Shown here one piece after another: positions 5,254-24,719 of a stretch of DNA of 32,672 nt (positions are counted from its first letter, which is position 1; each line of letters starts with the position of its first letter). The notes under the pieces were generated by a model. That model was not told where the DNA came from and searched no databases. It saw only the letters and a program-made list of their open reading frames with translations. The stretch comes from Sphingomonadales bacterium (lineage in GTDB: Bacteria; Pseudomonadota; Alphaproteobacteria; Sphingomonadales; Sphingomonadaceae), in assembly GCA_025351405.1 (NCBI GenBank), contig JANXVZ010000029.1:1-32672 (forward strand). The letters are read 5' to 3'. Both the position numbers and the translations under genes were made by a program.

Positions 5254-5271
5254 CACCCCGCCGGTGCACGG

Positions 5272-6738: not shown

Positions 6739-6750
6739 CCGGGAAATGGC

Positions 6751-8265
6751 TCAGGCCGCCGGCCTGCAGGCCTGCTCGATAACGGCACGGTGGGCGGGCA
6801 TCTGCCCTGCGACTTGCGCCATTGCCTCGCGCAACCGCTTCAGCCAATCGGCTCCATCGACCTCGCGATAACCGATCAACGGGTCGAGGCGTTGCGGCAG
6901 GTTCAACTGGCCGACATGGACCGCAAGCCAGCTTGGTGCACCGAACAAATCCATGTCACGTGCAATCAGCCGGCCGAACTTGCGGAAATGGTCGATCTTG
7001 GTCTGCAACGTTTCGGGGATCGCCATCGCCGCGCAACACCGCCACATCGCGGAATCGTCGCGCTGGGTCAGGTAGTAATGGAGGATCAGGAAGTCGCGGA
7101 TACGCTCGACTTCGTTGGAGGCGATGCGGTTGTATTCGTCGGTGACCAGCGGGTCGAAATCGCGGTCGGGAAACAGCGCCAGCAACTTCGATATGCCAGC
7201 CTGGATGAGGTGGATACTGGTCGATTCGAGCGGTTCCATGAAGCCGCTCGACAAGCCGATAGCAACGACATTGCGGCTCCAGAACGACTTGCGCCGCCCG
7301 GTGGCGAAATGCAGTTGGCGCGGGTCGGCAAGCGCCTTGCCATCGAGATTGCCCAGCAGGGTGGCGGCGGCCGCATCGTCGCTGATGTGGTCGCTGCAAT
7401 AGACGTAGCCGTTGCCGATGCGGTGCTGCAGCGGGATGCGCCATTGCCAGCCGGCGGCGCGCGCGGTGGATCGGGTGTAGGGCTCCAGCGCGGAGGTGGA
7501 TTCGCACGGTACCGCCACTGCCCGGTCGCACGGCAGCCAATGGTTCCAGTGTTCATAGCCGGCGTGCAGCGCGCCTTCGATGAGCAGGCCGCGAAAGCCC
7601 GAGCAATCGATGAACAGGTCCGCCGCGAGACAGCGCCCATCCTCGAGAGAGACGCTTTCGACAAAGCCGTCATCGCCGCGCAAGGCGGCACCGGCGACCT
7701 TGCCCTCCAGCCTGATGACGCCGCGTGCCTCGGCATATTCGCGCAGGAACCCGGCATACAGCCCGGCGTCGAAATGATAGGCATAATCGTAGGTCGACTG
7801 CACGAGGCGCTGGTCGGCGGACGGCGGTGCAAATCGGCCGCGGCTGGCGGCCGCCCACGCCATCGAATGGTCGTCGAGGCTCGCGGTGCTCCCCGCCAGC
7901 CGCGCTTGCAGCCAATATTGGTGGAGCGGTACGAGGTCGAAGTTGCGGCCATGGGGTCCGAACGGGTGGAAGTAGCGGTTGCCCAGCTTTGCCCAATCGA
8001 CGAATTCGATGCCGAGCTTGAACGAGCCCTTGGTGCGGCGGATGAATTCGGCTTCGTCGATGCCGAGCGTCTGGTTGAAAAGCCGGATCGGCGGAATTGT
8101 TGCCTCGCCCACGCCGATGGTGCCGATGTCGTCGGATTCGACCAGTGTGATGGCGCAGCCGCGCGGCAAGGCATGGGCGAGCGCAGCGGCGCTCATCCAG
8201 CCGGCGGTGCCGCCGCCGACGATGACGATACGGCGGATGGCGCGGTCTTCATTCTGGCTGGCCAT
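6751..8265 (-). CDS. Flavin-dependent tryptophan halogenase family protein
   Basis: A 504-residue PrnA-type flavoprotein. It has the FAD box [10 protein letters not shown] near residue 15, the active-site lysine Lys79 in [13 protein letters not shown], the WxWxIP motif (WQWRIP, 273-278) that marks halogenases against monooxygenases, and the EPLEST block with Glu344, matching the second catalytic residue of PrnA. I chose ATG 8265 because GGGAG lies five bases upstream; a GTG two codons earlier has no room for a site. It needs reduced FAD from a separate reductase. It sits between the TonB receptor and GH32 genes on the same strand. Halogenases of this group are known beside TonB receptors in Xanthomonas and sphingomonads, with free indoles often better substrates than tryptophan. 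The natural substrate here is unknown. Confidence 0.92.
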
Positions 8266-8297
8266 TTTCACTCCCGATCATCAGCACTGGACAGCAT

Positions 8298-8331
8298 ATC
8301 AGGTGCGGTCGCATCCGCGACCGCACCTGAT
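8298..8331 (-). terminator. Strong hairpin between receptor and halogenase genes
   Basis: Two perfect 15-bp arms (8298-8312 and 8317-8331) are separated by four bases (ATCC), giving a GC-rich stem. It lies 34 bp after the receptor stop and 33 bp before the halogenase start. No T-run follows on the transcribed side, so it may be a partial terminator or an mRNA-stabilising structure that lets the receptor be made in excess over the downstream enzymes. Confidence 0.7.
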
Positions 8332-8364
8332 GACGCCGATCTGACCTGTTTGTTATCGTTATGA

Positions 8365-10863: not shown

Positions 10864-10926
10864 GCCGTCTCCCCCGGAGTGATTCGATCGGGCGTTATCG
10901 CCTCTGATCTTGCCGTATCGCGCACG

Positions 10927-10938
10927 GCAAACGTTTGC
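10927..10938. promoter_or_regulatory. Palindrome GCAAACGTTTGC, second LacI-type site
   Basis: A perfect 12-bp palindrome with a central CG, in the divergent receptor/regulator promoter. Its centre is 23 bp from the centre of the CAATCGATTG site, about two helical turns, so two dimers could bind side by side. It is close to but not the same as the shared core. Confidence 0.5.
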
Positions 10939-10947
10939 AAGCGAGAA

Positions 10948-10961
10948 TTGCAATCGATTGA
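10948..10961. promoter_or_regulatory. LacI-type operator between receptor and regulator
   Basis: TTGCAATCGATTGA carries the shared core GCAATCGATTG (10950-10960). It lies 87 bp from the receptor start and 88 bp from the regulator start, placed to control both. Confidence 0.68.
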
Positions 10962-11048
10962 AAATTTCGGCAAAACGCTGGATGAGCGGCGGATAATGTT
11001 GCCAAGCCGCGTCCCGGGCCATAGTCGATGCAAAGGGAAGGAGGGCCT

Positions 11049-12053
11049 ATGCGCAGGATCCGCAATATCACCGAGTTGGCGGAACTTGCCGGCGTATCGC
11101 CCGGCACGGTGTCGCGGGCGTTGAGCGATACAGGCCTCATCAGCGCCAAGACGCGCGAGCGCATCAAGGCCATCGCGCTGGAACATGATTTCCGGCCCAA
11201 TGCGATGGCGCGCAACCTTCGTATCCAGCGTACCGGCGCCATCGGCGTCGTCATCCCGCTCGGCCACGCCACCGGGCAGCATATTTCCGACCCGTTCTTC
11301 ATGACCATGCTCGGCCTGCTCGCCGATGCGCTGACCGAGCGCGGCTATGACCTGGTGCTGTCGCGCGTGATACCGTCCGAAAGCGAATGGCTGGCAAAGA
11401 TCGTCGATTCGGGCCGGGTCGACGGCGTTATCGTCATCGGCCAGTCCGACCAGTCGGCAACGCTCGATCGCGTCGCGGCGCGCTATCGCCCGCTCGTGGC
11501 CTGGGGCGGCCATGTCGAGGGCCAGGTGCATTGTTCGGTGGGTTCCGACAATCGGCTGGGTGGTGAACTGGCTGCGCGCCATCTCATTGCGCAAGGCTGC
11601 CGCCGCATCGCCTTCTTCGGCGACCCGCGGGCGCTGGAGATCGCCCAGCGGCTCGACGGCTGCCGCCAGGCCATGCTGGAAGCCGGGATCGCCGACGACC
11701 TGGTGGTATTGCCGGCCCATCTTGTCGCCGAAGCGGCGCATCCCGACATCGCCGACTTCCTCAGCCAGAATTCGCAGCGGCCGCAAGGCATCGTTGCAGC
11801 CTCCGATGTTATCGCCATGAGCGCATTGAGGGCGCTGGCCGAGTTCGGCATTGCAGTGCCGGACGACGTCCGCGTCATCGGTTACGACGACCTGCCGATC
11901 GCGCAGCACAGCTTTCCGCGGTTGACGACGATCGGCCAGGATCTGGAACGCGGCGCCGCGACGCTGATCGACCTGTTGTTCCGCCGCATAGCGGGTGAAG
12001 ATTGCCTATCGGTGGTCATGCAGCCGAACCTTGTGGTGCGCGCTTCGGCCTGA
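11049..12053 (+). CDS. LacI-family transcriptional regulator
   Basis: A 334-residue regulator. The N-terminal helix-turn-helix and hinge are typical (ITELAELAGVSPGTVSRALS, then RERIKAIALEHDFRPNAMAR), followed by a periplasmic-binding-protein-like sensor domain starting at TGAIGVVIP and ending with the GYDDLPIAQHSFPRLTTIGQ block. GGAAGGAGGG at 11035-11044 just before ATG 11049 fixes the start; an ATG seven codons upstream lacks a site. It is divergent from the TonB receptor and convergent with GH68. The shared GCAATCGATTG sites at three promoters of this locus make it the obvious regulator of sucrose/fructan genes, probably a repressor released by sucrose, fructose or a phosphorylated form. 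The effector is not visible from sequence. Confidence 0.92.
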   Translation: MRRIRNITELAELAGVSPGTVSRALSDTGLISAKTRERIKAIALEHDFRPNAMARNLRIQRTGAIGVVIPLGHATGQHISDPFFMTMLGLLADALTERGYDLVLSRVIPSESEWLAKIVDSGRVDGVIVIGQSDQSATLDRVAARYRPLVAWGGHVEGQVHCSVGSDNRLGGELAARHLIAQGCRRIAFFGDPRALEIAQRLDGCRQAMLEAGIADDLVVLPAHLVAEAAHPDIADFLSQNSQRPQGIVAASDVIAMSALRALAEFGIAVPDDVRVIGYDDLPIAQHSFPRLTTIGQDLERGAATLIDLLFRRIAGEDCLSVVMQPNLVVRASA

Positions 12054-12070
12054 AGCGTTCCACCCAAGGC

Positions 12071-13249
12071 TCAGGGTGCAACGATGCTGGCGCTGTCGCC
12101 CGACAGCGCAATCGAGAAGCGCGGTGCCGGCGTGCCGCCGAATTGGCCGCGCAGAAGTTGCGGGTGGTCATCGAACGAACGGCCCTGCAACCCCCAATGG
12201 TCGATGAAGCTGGCAACCTGGAGTGTGTCGGTCACCCACCAGCTATAGGCCTGCAACGGCTCATGTTCCGGGTTGGCCGCAACCAGCCCGGTGCCGTTGA
12301 GCGGGCGATAAGGCCCGGTCAGCGCCGGCGCCACCATGCCGTAAAGCCCGTTCGGACCCGATGGCCCGGCAGGCGCGAACACCCGGCGTTGGGTCGACCA
12401 GAACAGATAGTAAAGCCCGTCATGGACGATGACATGCGGTCGTTCGAGCTCGTTATTGAGGCCGTCGGCGGTGACCAGCGGCGGCATCAACGACCAGTTG
12501 CCGCCGCGAGATGCGGCAATTCCAAGTTCGCCGCGAGATGCCGCAATGCCGACGACGCCGCTGAAATCATGCGGAGATTGCCCCTTCGAGCCGGTGAACA
12601 GCAGGTAGTCGCGGCCATCGGCGGGGTCACGAAAATACGCCGGGTCGCGAAACGCCTTGATCAACCCCGGTTCCCCATCCTTTTCGGCGGCGACGTCGTA
12701 CCAATGACCATCGCTGGCGACCGACTCCACCGCCGGCGACCAGTCGCTGACCCGGGCGCGGCCGCTGTGCATCGACAGGTGACCAACGGTTTCGAACAAT
12801 CGCTGCTCGAAGGTCGGATGGGCTTCACCACGGCGGCCGGAAGCTGTGAAATACAGCGTCAACCGGTCATGCGCCGCGGTCACCACGGCCGACCCCGCCC
12901 ATTCGCGGCTACCGGGGCTGAACCCTTCGGGCAGCACGTCGCCACAATCGGTCCAAATGTGGCCGTGATGTTGCAGCAAGCGGATACGGGCGATGCCATG
13001 GCGATGGCCGGGGTCGGCACCGCCCGGCGCGGACAGCACCATCCAGAGTTCGTTGCCATCGAAGCGCGCGGTGCGGCCATCGGCATATTGCACCGGCCAC
13101 ATATCCCAGAGGTCGATGCCGCGCAGGGCCGGCTGCGCGTCGGCGGCGGTTATCAGCGGCAGCGTCGGCACCGGGGACGCGTCGATCGCGGCAACGGCTG
13201 CGGGCGACCACACCGACGATATATGCGAGAATGTCGATTGATCCGTCAT
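12071..13249 (-). CDS. GH68 levansucrase/inulosucrase-type enzyme
   Basis: A 392-residue glycoside hydrolase family 68 protein, close in layout to the Zymomonas mobilis levansucrase. Nucleophile Asp49 lies in LWDMWPV, the transition-state stabiliser Asp202 in FRDP, and acid/base Glu269 in ELERPHV; PYRPLNGTGLV and QAYSWWV are further family blocks. It would cleave sucrose and transfer fructosyl units to water or a growing fructan. No signal peptide is present at the chosen ATG 13249; a longer frame to 13369 overlaps the fructokinase gene and adds no leader. Zymomonas levansucrase is also exported without a classical leader. A LacI-type operator lies 59 bp upstream. Residues 234-249 contain a small in-frame tandem repeat. 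Confidence 0.9.
   Translation of the reverse strand: MTDQSTFSHISSVWSPAAVAAIDASPVPTLPLITAADAQPALRGIDLWDMWPVQYADGRTARFDGNELWMVLSAPGGADPGHRHGIARIRLLQHHGHIWTDCGDVLPEGFSPGSREWAGSAVVTAAHDRLTLYFTASGRRGEAHPTFEQRLFETVGHLSMHSGRARVSDWSPAVESVASDGHWYDVAAEKDGEPGLIKAFRDPAYFRDPADGRDYLLFTGSKGQSPHDFSGVVGIAASRGELGIAASRGGNWSLMPPLVTADGLNNELERPHVIVHDGLYYLFWSTQRRVFAPAGPSGPNGLYGMVAPALTGPYRPLNGTGLVAANPEHEPLQAYSWWVTDTLQVASFIDHWGLQGRSFDDHPQLLRGQFGGTPAPRFSIALSGDSASIVAP
12502..12547. repeat. 27-bp in-frame tandem repeat in GH68 gene
   Basis: A 19-bp segment at 12502-12520 recurs at 12529-12547 with one mismatch, a 27-bp period. In the protein it gives GIAASRG twice (residues 234-240 and 243-249), nine codons apart. It keeps the frame and sits between the FRDP and ERP blocks, so the enzyme can still be active. 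Confidence 0.75.
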
Positions 13250-13307
13250 GCGGCCTGCTCGCGATGTTGTCCCCGAATCGCTCCATAAAGCACCGGCGCG
13301 GTTTTTC

Positions 13308-13323
13308 AACAATCGATTGCAAT
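13308..13323 (-). promoter_or_regulatory. LacI-type operator upstream of GH68
   Basis: On the minus strand this reads TTGCAATCGATTGTTG-like sequence with the same core, GCAATCGATTG, as the other two sites; it matches the transporter site over GCAATCGATTGTTG. It overlaps the stop codon of the fructokinase gene (13323-13325), showing that GH68 has its own regulated promoter rather than relying only on read-through. Confidence 0.66.
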
Positions 13324-14261
13324 CAGGCCGTGGCCGGGCGCTTTTCCGTTTCGAGGGCGATCTGGCCAAGCGCGATGGCGCCCAATGGCCCGGCGCGGTC
13401 GCCCAGTCCCGGGGCGCAGAGCAGCGTGTCCATTGTCGTCGCAGATAGCGGCGTCACATAGCCGGCAAGCAACAACAGGGTACGGGCGCGGATCGCCGGC
13501 AACAGCGCCGCCTCGCTGCTGCCGCCGCCGCCTCCAAGGCCAACCCCGCCGCCGATGATGATGCGCTGGGGTGACAGCGTCAGCACCAGCATGGCCACCA
13601 TCTCCGCCAGTTCCGCCGCGACATTGCGCCAGATCGGATGGTCAGTCGGCAATTCCGTTGCGGGTGCGCCCGCACGCGCCGCAATGGCGGGGCCGGAGGC
13701 GAGGCCCTCCAGGCAGTCGCCGTGATAGGGGCAGATACCGGGGTGGCTGTCGCCCGGCACCCGGCGGATGCGGAGATGGCCCAGTTCAGGGTGGACAAGG
13801 CCATGCACCGGGCGACCATCGACGATGACACCACCGCCGATTCCGGTGCCGATGGTCAGGTAGACATGGACGCTTGTCCCGATTGCGGCGCCCCAGCGCT
13901 GTTCGGCCAGCCCGGCGCCGGCGACATCGGTGTCGAAACCGATCGGTCCGGCGAAAGCCTGCGCAAAGTGCCCGCGCACATCGATATTGCTCCAGCCCGG
14001 CTTCGGCGTCGTCGTGATCCTGCCGAAATCGACGGCGCCGGGGTCCAGCCCCAGCGGCCCGAAGCTGCCGATGCCCAGCGCGGCGATATCATGCCCCGCG
14101 CTCCACAGCGCCAACTGGCCAGACAACGCGCCGAGCGTGGCGGCGGCATCGCCGGTCGGGATGCGCAGCGTGTCGATGATGTGGGTGCCGCGAGCAATCA
14201 GCGCGACGCTCTTGGTGCCGCCGAGCTCGATGCCGGCGATAACAGGTCCGGTGCCGTTCAT
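13323..14261 (-). CDS. ROK-family fructokinase
   Basis: A 312-residue ROK kinase. It has an N-terminal phosphate-binding loop (GIELGGTKSVALIA), the catalytic Asp in GFDTDVAGAGLAE (Asp112), IGTGIGGGVIVDG, and the zinc site His162 with Cys177, His180 and Cys183 in HPELGHL and CPYHGDCLEGLASGPA. CPxHxxCxEG with this spacing is typical of fructokinases such as Bacillus YdhR and Mak. It should phosphorylate fructose to fructose 6-phosphate in the cytoplasm, the step after GH32 or GH68 action. The ATG at 14261 overlaps the antiporter stop (ATGA), so the two are co-transcribed. The longer frame reading upstream through the antiporter is not real. Confidence 0.9.
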   Translation of the reverse strand: MNGTGPVIAGIELGGTKSVALIARGTHIIDTLRIPTGDAAATLGALSGQLALWSAGHDIAALGIGSFGPLGLDPGAVDFGRITTTPKPGWSNIDVRGHFAQAFAGPIGFDTDVAGAGLAEQRWGAAIGTSVHVYLTIGTGIGGGVIVDGRPVHGLVHPELGHLRIRRVPGDSHPGICPYHGDCLEGLASGPAIAARAGAPATELPTDHPIWRNVAAELAEMVAMLVLTLSPQRIIIGGGVGLGGGGGSSEAALLPAIRARTLLLLAGYVTPLSATTMDTLLCAPGLGDRAGPLGAIALGQIALETEKRPATA

Positions 14262-15472: not shown

Positions 15473-15609
15473 GTCTGCAGCGCCCCCCCGGGATGTGTTG
15501 CCACTGCTATAGCGTCTAGGGCGATGGTTGCGATACCGCTCCACCGCGAAGGCCTTCGGCAAGTGTTGCAGGCTGGGTCCATCCGGCTATGAGACCCAAT
15601 GGAGATCGC

Positions 15610-16776
15610 ATGAGCGCCGCCACCGAAGCCTTTGACCGCTGGATCCGCAGCGACTTCGTCGCAATGAACACCGCGCTGGAGGACCTGTATTTTGCAGAAA
15701 TCGACCGCGCCGCCGTGGCGGGCGTCGGCGATGATATCAAGGCGGAACTGCGCGACGCCGGCCAGGCCCATGTCGAGGCGCTGGCTCGCGAAGGCAACAC
15801 CGGCGCCGGCTTTGAAAGCGCCTTCGACGTTCTCGGCAATGTCGGGCTGTACCTGGCGGCCATGCGTCGCCACGAACTGACAAACCCGGCGCGCGAGGAG
15901 CGATCCCCGTTTCGCGAGGCGTCGTCGCTGGCGTTGCAGGCCGGTGCCTCGATCGGCATGGCACCGCGCTTTGCCTCGGCCCATCTGACAACGCACAACC
16001 GCGCCATCGGCGGCATTCGCAAAAGCTTCACCAGCCTGCACGACGAATTCCTGTTCATCGACGAGAATACCCGCGCCATGCTGGCTTTCCAGCGCGCCGC
16101 CGATGCGCTGGTCAGCACCCAGGCGATGGGGGTGACGAACCCCGTCGCCGATGTGCAACTGGCGGCGGCAACCAGCGCGCTGCATGAAGTCGTCCTCATC
16201 AACGGCCGGCTGTTCGCCACCCTCGACGTCGATCGATTCTTTTACAGCGTGCGTCCCTATTACAAGCCCTACCGCGTCGGGCGGACCGAATACCGCGGGG
16301 CCAACGCCGGGGACTTTTCCGGTATCAACGAGCTCGACCTGGTGCTCGGGCTCTGCCGCGCCAATGATCCGACCTATGCCCAGTTGCTGGTCGACAAGAT
16401 GCCGTTCATGCGTCCCGCCGACCAGATGCGGGTCCGCGAGGCGATGCAGCGACCCAGCTTGCTCGACACGCTGCTCGATACCATCGACGATGGCGGCAGC
16501 GCCTGGGCGAACAACGCGGCGCTGTTCCTGGCGGCGGCCGACGCCTTTGGCGACACCGCGCGCCAGCACCATGACCAGTTGGTGGAGCGGTTCATCGCCC
16601 AGCCATCGGCAAGCCTTGATGCGCCGCACCTCGGCCAGGTTACCGCCAGCGGGCCGCCGCTTCACGTACTGATGGCGTCGCTGGCGACTCTGCGCGATTT
16701 GCGCACCGCCGCCGATCGGCCGGGCATCGCCTCGCGCCATGCCGATATGGCGCGATTGCGGGCGCGGGTCGGGTGA
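15610..16776 (+). CDS. PrnB-like (DUF1864) dioxygenase-superfamily protein
   Basis: A 388-residue protein that I recognise as PrnB-like/DUF1864, part of the indoleamine/tryptophan 2,3-dioxygenase heme superfamily. Supporting segments are RFFYSVRPYYKPYRVGRTEY, RGANAGDFSGINELDLVLGL and LCRANDPTYAQLLVDKM, a pattern typical of this family. PrnB turns 7-chlorotryptophan into a phenylpyrrole in pyrrolnitrin synthesis; most homologues have no known function. I chose ATG 15610 because GGAG lies six bases upstream; an ATG at 15589 has no site. It is divergent from the antiporter/fructokinase pair and about 7.3 kb from the halogenase. No PrnC or PrnD homologue is in view. I did not assign the proximal heme histidine. 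Confidence 0.72.
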   Translation: MSAATEAFDRWIRSDFVAMNTALEDLYFAEIDRAAVAGVGDDIKAELRDAGQAHVEALAREGNTGAGFESAFDVLGNVGLYLAAMRRHELTNPAREERSPFREASSLALQAGASIGMAPRFASAHLTTHNRAIGGIRKSFTSLHDEFLFIDENTRAMLAFQRAADALVSTQAMGVTNPVADVQLAAATSALHEVVLINGRLFATLDVDRFFYSVRPYYKPYRVGRTEYRGANAGDFSGINELDLVLGLCRANDPTYAQLLVDKMPFMRPADQMRVREAMQRPSLLDTLLDTIDDGGSAWANNAALFLAAADAFGDTARQHHDQLVERFIAQPSASLDAPHLGQVTASGPPLHVLMASLATLRDLRTAADRPGIASRHADMARLRARVG

Positions 16777-16821: not shown

Positions 16822-17997
16822 ATGAAAAACACCATCGATATCGGCCTGCTCTGGCATTCGGACCGTTCCGGCAACCTTGGCGTCGGCGCGTTGACGGTCG
16901 GCAACATCGCCATCGTGCGCGGCGTGCTGGCTGAAATGGAGCTGGTGCCGAGCTTCGTCATCCACGGTTTTGCCGATACGAGGGCGCCGTATATCCACGA
17001 CGCCGATGTGACATTCTCCGGCGTGCGTTTCAGCGGCTTCCCGGCCTATTTCGCCGCGATGGGGGCGACCGATTGCGTCCTCGATATCGGCGGCGGCGAC
17101 AGCTTTACCGACATTTATCCCCCCAAGCGCTATCTCGCCATTCTCATCGCCAAGGCGCTTACCATAGTGCACGGCGTGCCGCTGCTGCTCAGTCCGCAGA
17201 CCATCGGCCCGTTCACCCGTGATACGGCATTGAAGAAACTGTTCGACGCAATCGCCTTCTGGACGATGCGGCGATCGCGTGCCGTCGTGGTGCGCGATGC
17301 CAAGTCAGCCGATGCGGTGCGGCAATTCACCCCCGGGGTCGAGCCGATCTACAGTGTCGATGTTGCCTTTGCGCTGCCATGGACTCCGGCACCTTCGACA
17401 CCGGGCCGGCGCCGCGTCGGCCTCAACATTTCGGGGCTGCTGTGGAACGGCGGCCACCGCGGCCGCCACGAATTCGGCCTCGGCTATGATTACAAGGCGC
17501 TGATGACGGCGTTGATCGAGGCGCTGCTGGCGCGGGATGACTGCACCATCGAACTGGTCTGCCATGTCAACGGTTATCCCGGCAGCCCCGAGGACGATGG
17601 CACCGTCGCCGATGCACTGGCCGCGCGCTGGCCACAGTTGGTGCGGGTGCCGGACTTTGCCTCGCCCTCGGAAGCCAAGAGCCATATTTCCGGCCTCGAC
17701 TTCCTCGTGGCGGCGCGAATGCATGCCTGTATCGCGGCCTTTTCGAGCGGCATTCCGGTGGTGCCCGTCTCGTACAGCCGCAAGTTCGAGGGGCTGTTCG
17801 GTTCGCTCGGCTATGATCATCTGGTGCCGCACACCGGCATGGCGACCGAAGCAGCGCTGGCCTTCATCCTCGATGCGATGGAGCGCGGCGACGCGCTGAA
17901 AGCCACGATCGCGACCTCGTCGGAACAGGTCAAGCTACGGCTGGAGGCATATCGCGGTGCACTGCGGGCGCTGTTCGGATCGCTCCCGCCGGGCTGA
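16822..17997 (+). CDS. Polysaccharide pyruvyl transferase family protein
   Basis: A 391-residue protein of the PF04230 family. Typical blocks are GNLGVGALTVGNI near the N-terminus, LDIGGGDSFTD (88-97), LLLSPQTIGPF (121-131), and the C-terminal VAARMHACIAAFSSGIPVVPVSYSRK read in two parts. Relatives such as CsaB and exopolysaccharide ketalases transfer pyruvate from phosphoenolpyruvate to a sugar, while others act on different acceptors. No strong ribosome-binding site is seen before ATG 16822. It follows the PrnB-like gene by 45 bp on the same strand and converges with the VOC gene (stops two bases apart). Because the facing cluster looks like glycan decoration, a sugar acceptor is likely, but there is no glycosyltransferase in view. 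Confidence 0.85.
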   Translation: MKNTIDIGLLWHSDRSGNLGVGALTVGNIAIVRGVLAEMELVPSFVIHGFADTRAPYIHDADVTFSGVRFSGFPAYFAAMGATDCVLDIGGGDSFTDIYPPKRYLAILIAKALTIVHGVPLLLSPQTIGPFTRDTALKKLFDAIAFWTMRRSRAVVVRDAKSADAVRQFTPGVEPIYSVDVAFALPWTPAPSTPGRRRVGLNISGLLWNGGHRGRHEFGLGYDYKALMTALIEALLARDDCTIELVCHVNGYPGSPEDDGTVADALAARWPQLVRVPDFASPSEAKSHISGLDFLVAARMHACIAAFSSGIPVVPVSYSRKFEGLFGSLGYDHLVPHTGMATEAALAFILDAMERGDALKATIATSSEQVKLRLEAYRGALRALFGSLPPG

Positions 17998-17998
17998 T

Positions 17999-18397
17999 TC
18001 AGCCGATCAGCTCGACATATTCCACCGTCAACCCGCGCGTGTACACCGGGCTCAGGAAGTTGCAGCGGAACGGCCCGGCGCCCTTCACATGGACGGGCTC
18101 GAGCAGTTTCATGCCCTGTGCCGCCAGTTCGGCCGCCTTGGCGTCAAGGCTTTCGACGACATAGGCGAGGTGATGCAGCCCGCCCATGCCTTTGTTGAAC
18201 TTGAGCAAGGGTCCGCCATCGGGGATGACAAATTCCACCGGCGAGGCACCGTTGCCCTGAACGAACACGCAAAGTGCCTGGAATTCGGGGACATAGCCGC
18301 GAAAGTCCTCGGCCAGCCCCAGCACCGCCATCATCGACGCCATCTCGTCCTCGTCGGGGACGACGATGCCGACATGATGCAGTTGCGGCCCCGTCAT
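17999..18397 (-). CDS. VOC-family protein, epimerase/glyoxalase-like
   Basis: A 132-residue vicinal-oxygen-chelate protein with two beta-alpha-beta-beta-beta units. Putative metal ligands are all present: His8 (LHHVGIVVPD), Glu55 (VEFVIPDGG), His76 (LHHLAYVVES) and Glu126 (VEYVEL), the HEHE set of methylmalonyl-CoA epimerase and related enzymes. ATG 18397 overlaps the TGA of the SGNH-like gene (ATGA), placing it last in the leftward MBOAT unit. Its reaction is unknown. In this cluster an epimerisation of an acyl-ACP or acyl-CoA thioester such as a glyceryl or malonyl-type group would fit, which is inference. Confidence 0.85.
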   Translation of the reverse strand: MTGPQLHHVGIVVPDEDEMASMMAVLGLAEDFRGYVPEFQALCVFVQGNGASPVEFVIPDGGPLLKFNKGMGGLHHLAYVVESLDAKAAELAAQGMKLLEPVHVKGAGPFRCNFLSPVYTRGLTVEYVELIG

Positions 18398-19425
18398 TTG
18401 CTGGTCTCCTCGGCAGCCGGCTTCGACAGCATATCGGCAAGCTGCGGCGCCAGCCAGTCGGTCAGCACCAGTGCCCCGGCGCGGTTGAGGTGCGCCACGT
18501 CCGAAAACCATTCGTCGTGCGTCGAAACAAAGCTGGCATCGAGCACCGGGCCATAGCGTTCATAGAATTTGCGTTCCTGGACCTGCGATGGCCCGCCATA
18601 ATAAGGCAGGAACAGGAAAGCGACCGGGATGCCGCGCTTCCTGGCGGCCTCGGCCATGCGCGCCACATAGACGCGTTCATCGCCGAATTCCTGGTCGGCG
18701 TAGCGCGGGCCCAGAACCGGCGGCCGGACGCCCTTTTCATAGCGTGCCTTGCCGGCGAGCAGGGCCGCCCTCGGGATACGCTTCTCACGCTCCACCCATA
18801 GCCCGTCGCCGGTTCGAAAGGAGACGGTGCTGTCATAATCGCTGCCGGCGTAGCGGGCCGGCTGGAATCGATCGGGCAGTTCGAAGAATGTGGGCGCGGC
18901 ACGCGCGGCGAACAGCTTGATCTGGCGGAAGGGCAGGTAGACCAGGTTCGACAGGTAATCGAGATTGCCGAAGAAACCGGGGTCGATGACGTCGCGCGCC
19001 GGGGCGATATATTTGAACGCGGGATGGCCAAAGCGACCGGGCTTTTCGATCACCGAGATCACCAGCAGTTTCGGCGCCTTGGCGCTGAGCAGCTCCTCCT
19101 CGATGACCCAGTGCAGGTCGCGGCCATTTTCGGGCAGCGAGAAATTGACGGTGGTCAGCGGCAGGCCGAGCGCGGCAAGATCGGATTGCAGGCGCGGCGC
19201 ACTGACCGCGGCGCCCGATCGCGATGGCCCGAGGATGGCGACATCGATCGGCTTGGGGTCGTTGTGCATGCGCTCGTAAATCCAGCGGATGCGGTTCTGG
19301 ATGGTGTGCTCGAGGCTGCTGAAACGCTGGTATTCATTGTCCGGCAACGCCATGGCGGCGGCGCCGGCGAGCAGCGCTGTGCCAAGCATCGCCGCCATTG
19401 CTCGCCGCCATCGGATCGTTCGCAT
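18394..19425 (-). CDS. SGNH-like exported partner of MBOAT
   Basis: A 343-residue protein with an N-terminal membrane anchor or uncleaved leader (RRAMAAMLGTALLAGAAAMA). It has an SGNH-hydrolase pattern: ILGPSRSGAAV with a candidate nucleophile Ser near residue 70, and DVAHLNRAGALVL near the C-terminus, which gives the Asp-x-x-His pair. Such proteins (AlgJ/AlgX, DltD-like) work with MBOAT proteins to move acyl groups to an extracytoplasmic glycan. ATG 19425 follows a GGGGCCGGGGG stretch; the frame extends 22 codons into the MBOAT gene but this would overlap. It lies 10 bp after the MBOAT gene and overlaps the VOC gene. The family name is uncertain; the fold and partnership are moderately sure. 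Confidence 0.75.
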   Translation of the reverse strand: MRTIRWRRAMAAMLGTALLAGAAAMALPDNEYQRFSSLEHTIQNRIRWIYERMHNDPKPIDVAILGPSRSGAAVSAPRLQSDLAALGLPLTTVNFSLPENGRDLHWVIEEELLSAKAPKLLVISVIEKPGRFGHPAFKYIAPARDVIDPGFFGNLDYLSNLVYLPFRQIKLFAARAAPTFFELPDRFQPARYAGSDYDSTVSFRTGDGLWVEREKRIPRAALLAGKARYEKGVRPPVLGPRYADQEFGDERVYVARMAEAARKRGIPVAFLFLPYYGGPSQVQERKFYERYGPVLDASFVSTHDEWFSDVAHLNRAGALVLTDWLAPQLADMLSKPAAEETSK

Positions 19426-19435
19426 CCCCCGGCCC

Positions 19436-20980
19436 CTAGAAGTTGAAATACAGGAACACGGCCTGCCCGCGCTGGATGAATTCGACCGCAATGAACAGCG
19501 TCAGCCCGGCGAACACCAGCCCCAGGCCCGACGGCCGCCACGTCCAGTCGAGGCGCGAGCGTGCCACATCGGCCCATTCGTTCCAGTTGTAGGCCGGGTC
19601 GTAGCGCCGCATGATCTGCTGGGTATTGGGGGCCAGCGCAACGATGGCGGTGGCGACGACAATGGTGACCAGCATGTCATAACCCAGCCCCGGCACCGCT
19701 CCATCGAGATTGAGCCCGCCCAGCCCCGACATCGCCCGCCAGACGCCGCCGGCCTCCGCAACGCTGGCGGCGCGGAACATGACATTGCCCAGCGCCACCG
19801 CGACGAGGGTGATGGCGTGATAGCCGAGGCGCTCGATATGCCCCGGATCGCCGAGCTTGATGCCCTTCTTGCGCAACACCCTCCGGCGGTTCTTGCGGCG
19901 TTCCCGCCAGGCTTCGTTGATGCAGATATAGGCGGCGTGCATTACCCCGAAGGTGACGAACGTCCAGCCGGCGCCGTGCCAGATGCCGACCGCGACGAAG
20001 GTGACGAAGCTCGGGATGGCGATGCCGACGCCGAACAGCGCCCAGCCCGAAAGCCCGCGCATCGCCGCCCAACGGTTCAAGGGCAGCGACAGCGGCTGGA
20101 AAATATAGGCGACGATGAAGCGCTGCAGCGTCATGTGCCAGCGCCGCCAGTAATCGATGATCGAGGCGGCGCGCAGCGGCGAATGGAAATTCAGCGGCAG
20201 CTTGACCCCGAGCATCCGGCCCAGCCCGATCGCCATATCGGAATAGCCGGAGAAATCGAAATACAGTTGCAGGCTGAAGGTGATCGCCGCCAGCCAGCCG
20301 GCCATGACATTGGCGTCGTGGACCCCGGCGGCGGCGAACAGCGGCCCCACCATCGGCGACAGCGTGTCGGCGATGACGGTCTTCTTGAACAGCCCGATGG
20401 CGAAGATGACCAGGCCAACGACAAGGTTGCGCCAGATCAGCCGGCCGAACAGCGGCGCCTGCAATTGCGGCGTCACTTCCTTGTAGTGGACGATCGGCCC
20501 GGCGATGAGCTGCGGGAAGAACGCCGCGAACAGCGCGAAATCGAGGAACTTCATCCGCCGCGCTTCGCCGCGCGCCGAATCGATGAGGTAGGCGATCTTC
20601 TGGAAGGTGAAGAAGGAAATCGCCAGCGGCAGCGCGATATGGGCCAGCGTCAGCCCCAGGTTGCCCGCGATGAAATTGGCGTATTTGAACCAGCCCAGCA
20701 GGGCCACATCGGCTAGCACGCCGAATGTCAGCCACAGCTTGACGCGGCTTGTGGCACCCGCCGCATGGGCGCGCTGGATGATGTCGCCAACGACGAAGTT
20801 GAAGACGATCGACCCGAGCAACAGCGGCAGGTGGACGGGCTTCCACCAGGCGTAAAAGCCGAGCGACAACAGCGTCAGCGCGATCTTCGCCGCATCCTGC
20901 CGCCAGCGGCCGAGCGCATAGAAGATGATCAGCGTCGGCGGCAGAAAGCCGAACAGGAAGATGAAACTGTTGAACAGCAT
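19436..20980 (-). CDS. MBOAT-family O-acyltransferase (AlgI-like)
   Basis: A 514-residue multi-pass protein of the AlgI/DltB type. It begins MLFNSFIFLFGFLP as most AlgI-like proteins do, has FFPQLIAGPIVHYKE and WRRWHMTLQRFI, and the catalytic histidine His335 in AVGIWHGAGWTF. AlgI-type proteins sit in the inner membrane, receive an acyl group from a cytoplasmic donor and pass it outward to a periplasmic transferase. Here the next gene is an SGNH-like exported protein, the usual partner, and nearby are an acyl carrier protein and an FkbH-type protein that could supply the acyl donor instead of acetyl-CoA. It begins 9 bp after the methyltransferase stop and is probably in the same operon. Confidence 0.92.
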   Translation of the reverse strand: MLFNSFIFLFGFLPPTLIIFYALGRWRQDAAKIALTLLSLGFYAWWKPVHLPLLLGSIVFNFVVGDIIQRAHAAGATSRVKLWLTFGVLADVALLGWFKYANFIAGNLGLTLAHIALPLAISFFTFQKIAYLIDSARGEARRMKFLDFALFAAFFPQLIAGPIVHYKEVTPQLQAPLFGRLIWRNLVVGLVIFAIGLFKKTVIADTLSPMVGPLFAAAGVHDANVMAGWLAAITFSLQLYFDFSGYSDMAIGLGRMLGVKLPLNFHSPLRAASIIDYWRRWHMTLQRFIVAYIFQPLSLPLNRWAAMRGLSGWALFGVGIAIPSFVTFVAVGIWHGAGWTFVTFGVMHAAYICINEAWRERRKNRRRVLRKKGIKLGDPGHIERLGYHAITLVAVALGNVMFRAASVAEAGGVWRAMSGLGGLNLDGAVPGLGYDMLVTIVVATAIVALAPNTQQIMRRYDPAYNWNEWADVARSRLDWTWRPSGLGLVFAGLTLFIAVEFIQRGQAVFLYFNF

Positions 20981-20989
20981 CGGCGGTGG

Positions 20990-21952
20990 CTAGAACCGAT
21001 CGTTCGAAGCCGGCACCGCGACGATGCCGGTGGACACGCTGATGCGCTGCGCCAGCGCGGATTCGATCTTGCGGCCCTGGGTGGCGAACATCTCCAGCCG
21101 CTCGACCTTGAAGCCGGCCGCCTCGACCAGCGCGGTCAGCTCCTCGGGCGTCGAAACCAAATAGATATGATCGGGCGACGGACTGTTGAGCGGCACGTTG
21201 ATGAAAATCCGCCCCGTCGGCCGCAGCGCCTTGCGCAGGAACGCCAGCGCCACTTCGGGCTGTTCGAGATGCTCGAGCACCTCCGAAATCACGATCAGAT
21301 CATATTGCCGGTCGGGCGCCTCTGCCTTCAAGATATCGACCTCGACGAGCGATACCGGCTTGTCGACGCCCAGGGTGGCCAGCGCCGCACCCGTTTCGCG
21401 CAGAGATACTGCGCTGAAATCCCAGGCGGCGAGGCTGCGCGACAGCGGCGACCGCGCCGCCAGATAGACCATCAGGCCATGCCCCGGGCCTATCTCGAGA
21501 TAATCGAACGGCGCATCCGCCGCCGCAAGCACGCGATTGGCGAACATCTCGAAGGTGCCGGCATGGTTGAACCACAAGATCTGCGACAGCAGCAAGCCAT
21601 CGACATAACGGCTCATATAGTCGTGGTTGGAATAGACCTCGGCATCAGCCTCGGCAAAGGTCGACAGCCGGTAACGGCCCTCGCGATGGAAGAAGATCTC
21701 CTCGTCGCGGAGCTGGTCGCACGTCCAGCGATAGCCTTCTGCAAACCGCGCCTCGTTCCCCGCCATCAACTTGCGCGCCGCCGTCGCCGCCAGTTCGGTC
21801 GAAGCCAGCATCTCCGGCGACCGTGCCCCGAAACTCTTGAGCAGATACGCCGCATGGTCGGGCCATGCCGCGAGCACCGCCTCGGCAATCACCAGCGTCT
21901 CGGGCAACGGCGCCAGCAGAACGCGCAGTGCAGCGGCCTTCTCGTCACTCAT
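20990..21952 (-). CDS. SAM-dependent class I methyltransferase
   Basis: A 320-residue protein whose first 140 residues are helical and of unknown role. The Rossmann methyltransferase domain begins with motif I (YLEIGPGHGLMVY), then a motif-II-like acidic end (VSLVEVDILKAE), VISEVLEHLEQPE (motif IV), and RPTGRIFINVPLNSP. This layout resembles UbiG-like O- and C-methyltransferases. Being joined to the MBOAT gene with a 9-bp gap suggests it methylates the acyl group or the glycan that the cluster works on. In methoxymalonyl-ACP synthesis, FkbG methylates the product of FkbH on its ACP, so an FkbG-like role is possible though sequence likeness to FkbG was not tested. Confidence 0.86.
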   Translation of the reverse strand: MSDEKAAALRVLLAPLPETLVIAEAVLAAWPDHAAYLLKSFGARSPEMLASTELAATAARKLMAGNEARFAEGYRWTCDQLRDEEIFFHREGRYRLSTFAEADAEVYSNHDYMSRYVDGLLLSQILWFNHAGTFEMFANRVLAAADAPFDYLEIGPGHGLMVYLAARSPLSRSLAAWDFSAVSLRETGAALATLGVDKPVSLVEVDILKAEAPDRQYDLIVISEVLEHLEQPEVALAFLRKALRPTGRIFINVPLNSPSPDHIYLVSTPEELTALVEAAGFKVERLEMFATQGRKIESALAQRISVSTGIVAVPASNDRF

Positions 21953-22130
21953 CCGCTGCGCCCTTACAATAACTGCAACTATCGGCCGCCCGGGTATCGG
22001 CTTGAGAGGCCGAAATCAACCGCCGTTCCTCCGGGGCAGCGATGGGTGGCGCAGGTGACAATATGGCATCGGCCTGGCTGCTGTTGTATGATGGCGACCG
22101 TTACGCCCCGCCCGATGAAGGAGATGCTCC

Positions 22131-22379
22131 GTGACCGAGGTTCCAAAGACTCCGCTGGTACCCGGCAACACGTTGATCACCCCGACGCCGGAGGAGGGCC
22201 GCGCACTGGCGATCACCTTGGCGCGCCACTCGATCCATGCCATCCAGAATAATCTCGAAGTGCTGCAGAACGGCCGCTCCCAATATGCCCATGACCCTTC
22301 CGGCTTGATAGCGACGAGCCATGTCGTCGCCATCGAGTTTGCCACGATCGCTGCAGCCAATGATTATTGGCGAGGCTAG
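22131..22379 (+). CDS. Small hypothetical protein
   Basis: An 82-residue frame with a GTG start and a good AAGGAG box (22118-22123), seven bases upstream. It is read opposite to its neighbours and separates the methyltransferase gene from the FkbH gene. The protein has a Pro/Thr-rich first 20 residues, then a helical segment (RALAITLARHSIHAIQNNLE) and a short C-terminal helix. There is no leader or membrane segment and I do not recognise a family. The ribosome-binding site and isolated position are the main support. Confidence 0.5.
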   Translation: MTEVPKTPLVPGNTLITPTPEEGRALAITLARHSIHAIQNNLEVLQNGRSQYAHDPSGLIATSHVVAIEFATIAAANDYWRG

Positions 22380-22415
22380 TGTCGCTTGTCGTCGGCCGGC
22401 ACTGACCCAGCCGCT

Positions 22416-24314
22416 CTAGGGAAGCGCGTTCGCCCGATCGATCTGCATCGGCAAATCGGGGGCGGTGTAGTCCGCCACTGCAAGTCGCCACACCGTCTCG
22501 CCGCCGGTTTCGCCGTCGATGCGGGAGAAGCCGAGCTTGGCGTAATGGTCGGCGACCATCGCGTTTTTCGCCGACGGGATGTGGCGGCCCGTCACATATT
22601 CCGCCCCTGCTTCCCGCGCCGCTGCCATGATTTCGGCGAGGACGGCGTCTTCCATGCGGCGGCCGAGAACGCGGCAGCTCATCAGCCAGGTGTCGATTTC
22701 CCAACTCTCCCGATCGACGATGATGACGCTGATCATGCCGTTGTCGCCGAAGCGGTCGACGAGCCGCACCTGCATCGTCAGCTTGGATGGATCGGCTTCG
22801 AGCGCTGCGACTTCCTTTTCCGCATACCGCCGGGTGGTCAGGTTGAACTGGTTGGATTTGTTGATGAGCTGGGCGATGCGGGCGCGGTTGGTGGCATCGA
22901 ACGCCCGGAAATCCGCCACCATGTCGAGCGAGGCCAGATACCCCGCCATGTCGCTGGTGCCGGCAAAGGCGGCGCGTTCGGCGTTGGCGCGATACTGGTC
23001 GGCGCGCTGCCGGTCTTCGGCGGCAAAGGCCAGCGCTTCGAAATAGCCCGCCGCTGCCAGCCGGCGCGGGTATAGCGCAGGGTCGTCACCGATTTCGGGC
23101 ACCGCCACCATCGGCAGTTCGCGGCGGACCTGGGCGCGTTCGACGGGGTTGTCGTCGAGGAACACCAGCGCATCGAGGCCGATATTGAGCGCCGCGGCGA
23201 TGGCGCGCAAATTGGTCGCCTTGTCCCCCCAATTGGCGACGAACACGGCGATATGCGCCTCGCGCAGCACCATGTCGGGGTGGCCCTGGAACGGCAGCCG
23301 CGCCACCGCCTCGTCGTTCTTGGAGCAGACCGCCAGCACGATGCCGCGTTGGCGCAGCGCCAGTGCCATCTGCTGGATGGCGAGGAATGCCTCCCCGGCG
23401 GCCGAGCCCTGGCCGAGCGCGATGCCCTCGACGCCGTCGTCGCCGATGACCCCGCCCCACAAGGTATTGTCGAGATCGAGCACCAGCGCCTTGCGGGTCG
23501 TGCCGCGCACCGCCGCCAGCACCCGCGCCACCATGTCGGCATAAAGCGGCACCAGGTCGGGCGATACCGCCAGCTTGGCGGAATGCCATTGCCCGGCGTC
23601 GTGCCAGTTTTCGAGGCCCACCGAGGCCGCAGCGCGCGCCGTGTCGAGCAGGATGATGCCCTTTCCCGCCGCCCATTCCGCCAGCTTCGCGTTGAGCGCC
23701 GCGATCATGGCGTGAACGCTGCCCGCCTCGACCGCGTCGAAACTGCCGAACAGCGGTTCGAGCGGCGGCACGACGGTGGCGATGATGACGCCCGATTTCG
23801 CCGATGTTTCCAGCCCGGCGACCATCGCCCGCAGCATGGCCAGCGCCGCTTCGACGGCTTCGGCGGCCTCGTCGCCGGTCATCCGCGTCCGGTCGAGCCC
23901 CAGCGTGCGGTGATCGAGCGCCACAAATACCAGGTCCAGCCCGGCACTGCGGATGGCGCTGCCGGGGTCGATCGCCTCCTGCATGGCGCTGCCATAATGG
24001 CCGGTGACGACGCTGGTGAGGACGCGGTGGCGCAAGGCGGAGGCGGCGATGGCCGGCGCCAGCAGATCGAGCGTGCCGGCGCCGATGATGCCGAGGCGAA
24101 CCCGCGCCAAAGGCCCGGGAGCAGGGGCGGTGGCGAGATAGGTCTCCACCGTCGCCGCCAATTGCGTCAACTGGTTGAGATCGAGCCGCGCCAGCGCCAG
24201 CGCATGCAGCGCCTCCTCCACGGGTTCACCCGTCGCAATTGCCGCGCGTACCGCCTTCAAACGGCTACGGAAATCCGCCGGCGCCGCCTCAAGCCAGTCG
24301 AGCCCCGCCAACAT
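22416..24314 (-). CDS. FkbH-type HAD-IIIC protein, glyceryl-ACP synthesis
   Basis: A 632-residue, three-part protein. The N-terminal 260 residues fit the SGNH-like region common in long FkbH proteins. The HAD-IIIC domain starts with VLDLDNTLWGGV (nucleophile Asp280, Asp282) and has VCSKNDEAV and VFLDDNPVERAQVR. The C-terminal part (RIAQLINKSNQFNLTTRRY through DTWLMSCRVLGRRMED to PSAKNAMVADHYAKLGF) is the GNAT-like FkbH end. Known FkbH proteins take 1,3-bisphosphoglycerate, remove phosphate and load a glyceryl group on an acyl carrier protein. A carrier gene ends seven bases before this start (ATG 24314), which fits exactly. A longer start at 24368 would overlap the carrier gene and is less likely. 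Confidence 0.9.
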   Translation of the reverse strand: MLAGLDWLEAAPADFRSRLKAVRAAIATGEPVEEALHALALARLDLNQLTQLAATVETYLATAPAPGPLARVRLGIIGAGTLDLLAPAIAASALRHRVLTSVVTGHYGSAMQEAIDPGSAIRSAGLDLVFVALDHRTLGLDRTRMTGDEAAEAVEAALAMLRAMVAGLETSAKSGVIIATVVPPLEPLFGSFDAVEAGSVHAMIAALNAKLAEWAAGKGIILLDTARAAASVGLENWHDAGQWHSAKLAVSPDLVPLYADMVARVLAAVRGTTRKALVLDLDNTLWGGVIGDDGVEGIALGQGSAAGEAFLAIQQMALALRQRGIVLAVCSKNDEAVARLPFQGHPDMVLREAHIAVFVANWGDKATNLRAIAAALNIGLDALVFLDDNPVERAQVRRELPMVAVPEIGDDPALYPRRLAAAGYFEALAFAAEDRQRADQYRANAERAAFAGTSDMAGYLASLDMVADFRAFDATNRARIAQLINKSNQFNLTTRRYAEKEVAALEADPSKLTMQVRLVDRFGDNGMISVIIVDRESWEIDTWLMSCRVLGRRMEDAVLAEIMAAAREAGAEYVTGRHIPSAKNAMVADHYAKLGFSRIDGETGGETVWRLAVADYTAPDLPMQIDRANALP

Positions 24315-24321
24315 GGCCGGC

Positions 24322-24567
24322 TCAGGCCGCCAGCTTGGCTTCGATGACCCGCGCCAGGTCGCCGACATTCTTCAATTCGGCGATTTCCTCATTGCGGAAC
24401 TTGATCTTGAACAGGCGTTCGAGGGTAATGACGAAACGAATATGGCTGAGGCTGTCCCACTCCTCGACATCATCCGCCGACGTCGCCTCGGTGACCTCGA
24501 GATCGTCGACGTCGAACACATCGACCATCGTTTCGGCGATCTTCGCCATGATTTCCTGATGATCCAT
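24322..24567 (-). CDS. Acyl carrier protein
   Basis: An 81-residue, acidic, all-helical carrier protein. The phosphopantetheine site is Ser39 in VEEWDSLSHI, the usual DSL motif. The ATG at 24567 has AGGA about nine bases upstream; the frame extends two codons to a TTG that is not needed. It is the first gene of the leftward FkbH unit and the natural partner of that protein, carrying the glyceryl or derived acyl group to later enzymes. Confidence 0.93.
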   Translation of the reverse strand: MDHQEIMAKIAETMVDVFDVDDLEVTEATSADDVEEWDSLSHIRFVITLERLFKIKFRNEEIAELKNVGDLARVIEAKLAA

Positions 24568-24719
24568 GCACAATGTCCTGCAAATCGAGACGAGCTATAT
24601 CATTGAACTGAAACGGTTTAATGCCGGGCCAGGCACGGCAGCGGTCTTAGCAGCCCCGCCCGTGGCGTGCAACTGCCGGCGTTGGTGGAGGCTCCGGCTG
24701 TTTTCAGGGCCTCCGGCGG

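Follow-up and report, generated by a model that had tools for sequence, protein, structure and literature searches.

What does a loader of glycerate-derived acyl groups do beside an MBOAT-SGNH acyltransferase pair? The question is raised by contig JANXVZ010000029.1 of a Sphingomonadales bacterium (assembly GCA_025351405.1), the whole of which, 32,672 bases, is the window analyzed here. Six genes on its minus strand, each an open reading frame (ORF), encode a stand-alone acyl carrier protein (ACP), an FkbH-type glyceryl-ACP synthetase, a methyltransferase, an MBOAT acyltransferase, an SGNH protein and a VOC metalloenzyme. All six were correctly placed by the initial annotation, which suggested that glyceryl-ACP is made, altered and moved to a surface glycan. 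Our data suggest that the cluster probably encodes a Dlt-like transmembrane acylation pathway, in which a glycerate-derived group would pass from the ACP onto an exported glycan. This main idea is well supported by gene association, a shuttle motif and predicted folds, while we infer the acyl group, its stereochemistry and its acceptor. The features, with the two adjoining genes last, are as follows.

24322..24573, minus strand: ACP, stand-alone acyl carrier protein of 83 residues with a DSL phosphopantetheine site (PF00550)
22416..24314, minus strand: FkbH-type glyceryl-ACP synthetase of 632 residues (TIGR01686, PDB 3slr)
20990..21952, minus strand: S-adenosylmethionine-dependent methyltransferase with a conserved N-terminal domain (PF13489)
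19436..20980, minus strand: MBOAT acyltransferase, DltB-like (PF03062)
19439..19456, minus strand: FLYFNF acyl-shuttle hexapeptide at the MBOAT C-terminus (FXYXXF motif)
18394..19425, minus strand: putative SGNH (DltD-like) acyltransferase with one N-terminal helix (model fold, S90 and H334)
17999..18397, minus strand: VOC metalloenzyme, relative of methylmalonyl-CoA epimerase (model fold, metal ligands, profile)
16822..17997, plus strand: polysaccharide pyruvyl transferase, convergent neighbor (PF04230, 81 bits)
22131-22379, plus strand: hexameric tyrosine-coordinated heme protein, HTHP (PF11534, 102 bits)

Association of the donor genes with the MBOAT

The window FkbH matches the curated model TIGR01686 with 283 bits (cut-off 147) and PDB entry 3slr with an E-value of 2.5e-58; its score against FkbH_N (PF21211), 25.5 bits, is slightly below the cut-off of 27. 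It carries DLDNT, an instance of the DxDNT motif, and the pattern D.D[NG]T recurs in 79/80 relative ORFs. We take its domains to be an SGNH-like N-domain, a HAD-IIIC domain and a GNAT-like C-domain. The ACP matches the Pfam PP-binding family (PF00550) with 26 bits against a cut-off of 20.8, and a DS[LIMV] motif is present in 64 of the 65 clustered ACPs. Glyceryl-ACP has been proposed as the product of FkbH and an ACP, according to the accessible part of PMC7489565. FkbI/FkbK-type dehydrogenases, which lead from glyceryl-ACP to hydroxymalonyl-ACP, are absent from the window proteins scanned with Pfam. Ketosynthase and nonribosomal peptide synthetase (NRPS) families are absent from the same proteins and from 20 neighbor representatives, a scan that covered part of the ORFs, and a polyketide or NRPS setting was rejected on this ground.

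Genome contigs were scanned with FkbH only, and the best 80 of 360 relatives were kept as loci (numbered L). Gene families were called on homology-scored ORFs within 8 kb of FkbH, with profiles built from the same loci; the 52 loci in which FkbH is flanked by 6 kb or more in each direction are termed full-flank. An ACP lies near FkbH in 73/80 loci and an MBOAT in 72/80; both are present in 69/80, and in 49 of the 52 full-flank loci. A VOC protein of either of two types (matches above 40 bits, which may include some housekeeping copies) is found in 36/80 loci and the methyltransferase in 22/80. Hosts include Sphingomonas, Novosphingobium, Phenylobacterium, Ruegeria, Bradyrhizobium, Burkholderia and Acidobacteria.

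Controls were drawn from 199 genomes of the family. FkbH was located 25 times there, in 23 genomes, and MBOATs like that of the window (E <= 1e-20) 60 times, in 54; for ten of the 25 FkbH places the distance to an MBOAT match is within 5 kb. Sixteen MBOAT loci without FkbH (L146-L161) were used for comparison. In twelve of them each flank measures about 7.5 kb or more; L147, L150, L154 and L158 are short on one side, and L011 was left out as too short. In stop-to-stop frames, none of the 16 holds an ACP (best match 6 bits); in the three FkbH-bearing control loci an ACP is present every time, at 81-87 bits, while other ORF calling recovered it in one of the three. The 16 loci also hold no window-type VOC protein and no methyltransferase match above 32 bits. 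A VOC match of 52-54 bits in L146 lies at a position that the family scan scored at the level of methylmalonyl-CoA epimerase (MMCE). Exclusive use of acetyl-CoA by the MBOAT, which the initial annotation had named as one of three cases that would speak against its proposal, is less likely because the ACP accompanies MBOATs beside FkbH and none of the 16 others.

Other arrangements were also seen. L162-L164, from genomes of two other genera, have a divergent arrangement of MBOAT, methyltransferase, ACP and FkbH without a window-type VOC protein. L140 (genome G087) and L144 (G171) combine FkbH and ACP with a MaoC-SDR-type gene and no called MBOAT, which is FkbH in another setting.

In the window, spacing is operon-like between ACP and FkbH (7 bases), methyltransferase and MBOAT (9) and MBOAT and SGNH (10), and the stop codon of SGNH shares bases with the VOC start (ATGA); the SGNH start at 19425 is our choice within an ORF that opens at 19491. 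The initial annotation overlooked HTHP, which sits on the opposite strand inside the 463-base gap between FkbH and the methyltransferase. Because of its position the six genes probably do not form one transcript, and a six-gene operon in the window was rejected. A tblastn search with HTHP gave no match in any of the 80 named FkbH loci, and FkbH and methyltransferase overlap or lie at most 40 bases apart in 13 of 14 parsed six-gene relatives, the methyltransferase being reversed in the remaining one; HTHP therefore looks like a local insertion. A promoter and terminator scan returned five promoter-like sites, where 1.3 were expected, and did not enter the interpretation.

The MBOAT-SGNH pair and its shuttle tail

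A search of the window's own genome with the MBOAT_2 family gave no match; the window MBOAT belongs to PF03062 instead (82 bits, cut-off 27). Only two solved relatives are found at E <= 0.01, both DltB (E 1e-29); the score against the DltB equivalog model TIGR04091 is 160 bits and does not reach its cut-off of 375. WHG, which contains the catalytic histidine, is present in 71 of 73 MBOAT relatives. The protein ends in FLYFNF, a sequence that fits the FXYXXF acyl-shuttle motif. A C-terminal Y..F is found in 65/73 relatives (the strict form F.Y..F in 44/73), compared with one of 2557 other ORFs of at least 150 residues. In PatA, the tyrosine of the C-terminal FXYXXF motif is auto-acetylated and the acetylated peptide feeds the SGNH partner; MBOAT-SGNH systems other than Dlt reportedly work with acyl-CoA and have no carrier protein (both from the accessible part of PMC12148441).

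For the SGNH protein, Pfam and NCBIfam gave no match, and its profile found nothing significant in PDB sequences (best E 0.13). An AlphaFold model from 19 relatives, with a predicted local distance difference test score (pLDDT) of 90.8, has six PDB matches at E <= 0.001, all of them D-alanyl transferases of the DltD kind (we take PDB entry 3bma to be DltD). Whole-chain template modeling (TM) scores are only 0.36-0.40, so the likeness to DltD is one of fold and is not close. S90 and H334 are invariant in the 19 sequences. By predicted fold and motif, the protein thus resembles a DltD-like acyltransferase.

The pair varies among relatives. In the closest ones, L031, L032 and L033, a second SGNH protein stands in the place of the methyltransferase, and an acyltransferase-3 gene lies between SGNH and VOC in L039, L040, L043, L081 and L105. 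The SGNH label of the Bradyrhizobium cluster c9, which is without Pfam support, is based on the similarity of its profile to that of the window type (hhalign E 5e-6).

The VOC protein, the methyltransferase and the acyl group

The VOC protein matches Glyoxalase_4 with 63 bits (cut-off 27). Its model (pLDDT 93.3) retrieves MMCE and close relatives as top PDB folds, with TM scores by query length of 0.72-0.87 over the first 23 ranks. The full HEHE metal set noted in the initial annotation was borne out: H8, E55, H76 and E126 are invariant in 24 VOC sequences and align with H12, Q65, H91 and E141 of the MMCE structure 1jc4. The MMCE set (H, Q, H, E) is thus altered by the exchange of Gln for Glu, which presumably makes it that of glyoxalase I. 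For the catalytic roles of MMCE residues, including E48 of 1jc4 and the metal ligands, we rely on what we take to be the accepted assignment. Against the curated MMCE model TIGR03081, the window protein scores 50.7 bits and does not reach the cut-off of 115.

Some match to the VOC alignment at E <= 1e-8 is found in 176 of the 199 family genomes. When up to 21 first-look candidates per genome were scored with the VOC profile, four places exceeded 200 bits among the matches listed, all beside FkbH and MBOAT, and the next match scored 56.7. The window's own genome carries a separate MMCE-level copy on contig C33, and the role of housekeeping methylmalonyl-CoA epimerase was rejected for the window protein for this reason. 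Judged from its sequence, it is most likely a dedicated paralogue. VOC proteins accompany two unlike MBOAT-SGNH types, that of the window and that of Bradyrhizobium (VOC7-VOC10, hhalign E 4.5e-29). An enzyme that enolizes acyl thioesters would have the right chemistry for inverting the alpha carbon of glyceryl-S-ACP. The polysaccharide gellan carries L-glycerate, as stated in the accessible part of PMC9104527.

The methyltransferase matches Methyltransf_23 (PF13489) with 53 bits (cut-off 27) and was aligned in 18 sequences. Its place in the pathway, and that of the VOC protein, were assessed by co-variation, taken as the correlation of pairwise identity matrices over the 13 taxa in which each of the six proteins was parsed; L036, L042 and L105 were left out since one protein was unparsed. 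Two blocks are apparent. On the donor side, correlations are 0.85 (FkbH-VOC), 0.77 (FkbH-ACP) and 0.77 (ACP-VOC), and on the transferase side 0.76 (MBOAT-methyltransferase), 0.67 (MBOAT-SGNH) and 0.57 (SGNH-methyltransferase); values across the blocks are 0.13-0.48, with the shared ancestry of the taxa still included. The VOC protein correlates more strongly with FkbH than with MBOAT, by 0.10-0.61 (bootstrap range), and the methyltransferase shows the reverse difference, with a range of 0.11-0.82. Three proteins in 20 taxa gave the same sign more weakly (FkbH-VOC 0.74, FkbH-MBOAT 0.61, VOC-MBOAT 0.50; range 0.02-0.43). Gene order would predict the opposite blocks, because the methyltransferase adjoins FkbH and VOC mostly follows SGNH. 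The two-block pattern therefore suggests that the VOC protein most likely belongs to donor making and the methyltransferase to what the transferase pair handles. O-methylation of a tethered glycerate has been proposed for suomilide (accessible part of PMC13122637).

VOC (36 loci) and MaoC (19 loci) never occur together in the 80 loci (Fisher p 1.6e-6, ancestry not corrected). MaoC and SDR replace VOC in FkbH-MBOAT loci including L054, L069, L074, L083, L104 and L109. Beside FkbH and ACP, MaoC and SDR could form a variant route from glyceryl- through pyruvyl- to lactyl-ACP.

Proposed pathway, alternatives and glycan context

In the pathway that we propose, FkbH would take D-1,3-bisphosphoglycerate and load D-glyceryl onto the phosphopantetheine of the ACP, as expected from its family. 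The VOC protein would remove the alpha proton of the hydroxyacyl thioester on the ACP, probably with inversion to L-glyceryl. The MBOAT would take the group from the ACP at the cytoplasmic side onto the tyrosine of its own FLYFNF tail, by analogy with the PatA and DltX mechanism, and from this tyrosine the DltD-like SGNH protein would transfer it onto a hydroxyl group of an exported polysaccharide. The methyltransferase may O-methylate either the group handled by the MBOAT-SGNH pair or the acceptor sugar, which is the least certain step. Of the route first suggested in the initial annotation, gene association supports the donor genes beside the MBOAT-SGNH pair and a VOC protein like a thioester epimerase; the glyceryl identity, the action of methyltransferase and VOC protein and the glycan acceptor stay at the level of inference.

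The cluster shares with the Dlt system (DltA-DltC-DltB-DltX-DltD), which D-alanylates teichoic acids, a dedicated carrier, a DltB-like MBOAT, a shuttle tyrosine motif and an SGNH protein with a DltD-like model. In contrast to Dlt, the loader is FkbH in place of the adenylating ligase DltA, a type absent from the window proteins scanned, the motif, which Dlt has in the separate DltX, forms the fused C-terminal tail of the MBOAT, and VOC and methyltransferase genes are added. The O-acetylation systems PatAB, AlgIJX and WssHI likewise pair an MBOAT that carries its own FXYXXF tail with a separate SGNH protein, but are described without a carrier and with an acyl-CoA donor (accessible part of PMC12148441), whereas the window has ACP and FkbH. 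What is new is the FkbH loader together with a dedicated VOC protein, in a system that is Dlt-like in its use of a carrier and PatA-like in its fused shuttle.

FkbH and a carrier also occur in the glyceryl-ACP pathways for methoxymalonyl-ACP, tetronates and suomilide loading, but the product of the window genes seems destined for an MBOAT-SGNH pair and not for an assembly line. The methoxymalonyl-ACP (FkbG-K) pathway additionally has two dehydrogenases beside FkbH and ACP, of which none is present among the window proteins scanned. MMCE and the window VOC protein have in common the fold, three identical metal ligands and a family known to act on an acyl thioester; they differ at Q65, which is E55 in the window protein, and at E48, which is C43. 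Gellan of Sphingomonas elodea shows L-glycerate on a polysaccharide (accessible part of PMC9104527), the kind of acceptor we suppose for the window, and no gene for gellan glycerate is named in the accessible parts of the sphingan and gellan literature examined.

The initial annotation knew of no described pathway with this combination, and we found none in the open-licence literature, in part of long listings, which makes the absence a weak one. The same weakness applies to the separate searches of that literature: FkbH with MBOAT led to aeruginosin-family peptides only, FkbH with exopolysaccharide to pathway software only, and a gellan glyceryl transferase, or glyceric acid in O-polysaccharide with a carrier, to nothing.

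Several observations weigh against the proposed pathway. All six genes are found in only 15/80 loci (12/52 full-flank loci), some in other orders, so that the joint conservation raised in the initial annotation holds for the ACP-FkbH-MBOAT core (69/80) and only partly for the full set. Exceptions include L042, where the methyltransferase is a contig-edge fragment upstream of ACP, L044, where MBOAT-SGNH is divergent, and L050, where the methyltransferase is reversed. HTHP interrupts the gene run in the window. In the family, no MBOAT match (E <= 1e-20) lies close to 15 of the 25 FkbH places, and FkbH thus also serves other purposes. The window-type VOC protein is present at only four of the ten FkbH-MBOAT places there. 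Six FkbH-MBOAT genomes without VOC beside FkbH, which include those of Sphingomonas trueperi (L080) and Sphingomonas sp. NFR04 (L070), show only an MMCE-level match of 44-52 bits, and VOC is thus not essential to the core. The MMCE residue E48 (1jc4) aligns with C43 of the VOC protein, kept in 22/22 window-type rows, and with Cys for Glu at this position epimerase activity is not assured. Eight of the 73 MBOATs are without the tail, all of them shorter (63-437 residues) than the median of 480. The YxxF tail is also present in 16/16 MBOATs without FkbH and is therefore by itself no pointer to a carrier; the tail is general, and ACP, VOC and methyltransferase go with FkbH. Wzx, Wzy and glycosyltransferases were not found among the window proteins scanned.

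Some of these points would fit two independent units, in which FkbH and ACP, perhaps with VOC, make a three-carbon (C3) block for, e.g., a small secreted metabolite, and the MBOAT-SGNH pair is an ordinary acetyl-CoA-dependent O-acetyltransferase for a surface glycan. HTHP separates ACP and FkbH from the remaining genes, the two blocks co-vary separately and are divergent in L044, FkbH places without a nearby MBOAT include the FkbH-ACP-MaoC/SDR loci L140 and L144, and carrier-less MBOAT-SGNH relatives are described as acyl-CoA users (accessible part of PMC12148441). We nevertheless regard this explanation as unlikely: ACP and MBOAT stand together in 49/52 full-flank FkbH loci, with Sphingomonas, Bradyrhizobium, Burkholderia and Acidobacteria among the hosts, ACP is absent from 16/16 MBOAT loci without FkbH, and the Pfam-scanned part of the window and neighbor ORFs holds no ketosynthase or NRPS. 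A rather doubtful alternative concerns the acyl group, which may be a C3 acid changed by methylation or in some other way (methoxymalonyl-like or O-methylglyceryl), the VOC protein acting on the product like a glyoxalase or lyase and not as an epimerase. The methyltransferase occurs in 18 of 36 loci with VOC compared with 4 of 44 without it, and both the presumed glyoxalase I metal set and the Cys aligned with E48 of MMCE are in keeping with this. However, VOC occurs without the methyltransferase in L031, L033, L041, L046, L091 and the Bradyrhizobium loci, its co-variation with FkbH (0.85) and ACP (0.77) exceeds that with the methyltransferase (0.44), and no dehydrogenase family that forms hydroxymalonyl-ACP is present among the window proteins scanned.

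The acceptor might also be a lipid or a protein, which we consider quite improbable. The missing Wzx, Wzy and glycosyltransferase genes would fit it, as would the 22/52 full-flank loci with none of the exopolysaccharide-type families sought; we also list here the adjoining pyruvyl transferase and the GH68 levansucrase/invertase (12071-13369), the former being the only family of this type, together with GH68, among the window proteins scanned. On the other side stand the DltD-like SGNH model and the presence of Wzy_C, GT2, Bac_transf, Wzz or pyruvyl transferase families in 30/52 full-flank loci (33/80 overall). The window's own genome holds an exopolysaccharide-type locus on contig C31, with Bac_transf, Wzz-type, GT2-type, DUF3485 and acyltransferase-3 (AT3) genes, and another Bac_transf near a glycosyltransferase on C1. 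A pyruvyl transferase lies beside related clusters with 46-66% identity in L031, L036 and L038, and as a profile match in L143.

Further genes of the window were noted. Directly before the pyruvyl transferase, 15589-16776 (plus strand) matches PrnB, monodechloroaminopyrrolnitrin synthase (PF08933, 511 bits). The region 3937-13369, with MFS, GH32, tryptophan-halogenase-type flavoprotein, TonB receptor, LacI and GH68 levansucrase/invertase genes, is a probable fructan or sucrose locus. At the contig edge (1-2822), ParB/RepB-type genes and a large serine recombinase hint at a plasmid or integrated element.

More broadly, we put forward, as a tentative idea held at somewhat less than even confidence, that the cluster represents an undescribed and widespread class of Dlt-like systems in Gram-negative bacteria, including Acidobacteria. 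Its members would build C3 acids on an ACP from 1,3-bisphosphoglycerate and esterify them to exopolysaccharides via a fused tyrosine shuttle, with FkbH giving glyceryl, VOC L-glyceryl, MaoC and SDR lactyl and the methyltransferase O-methyl groups; this may be the missing L-glycerate route of gellan-like gums. If true, the finding would break the published rule that MBOAT-SGNH pairs outside Dlt are without a carrier protein and would link glycolysis, through 1,3-bisphosphoglycerate, directly to polymer decoration. It would also supply genes that can be tested as the source of the glycerate groups in commercial gums such as gellan, where gel texture depends on the acyl content, and a set of interchangeable enzymes with which bacterial polysaccharides could be tailored.

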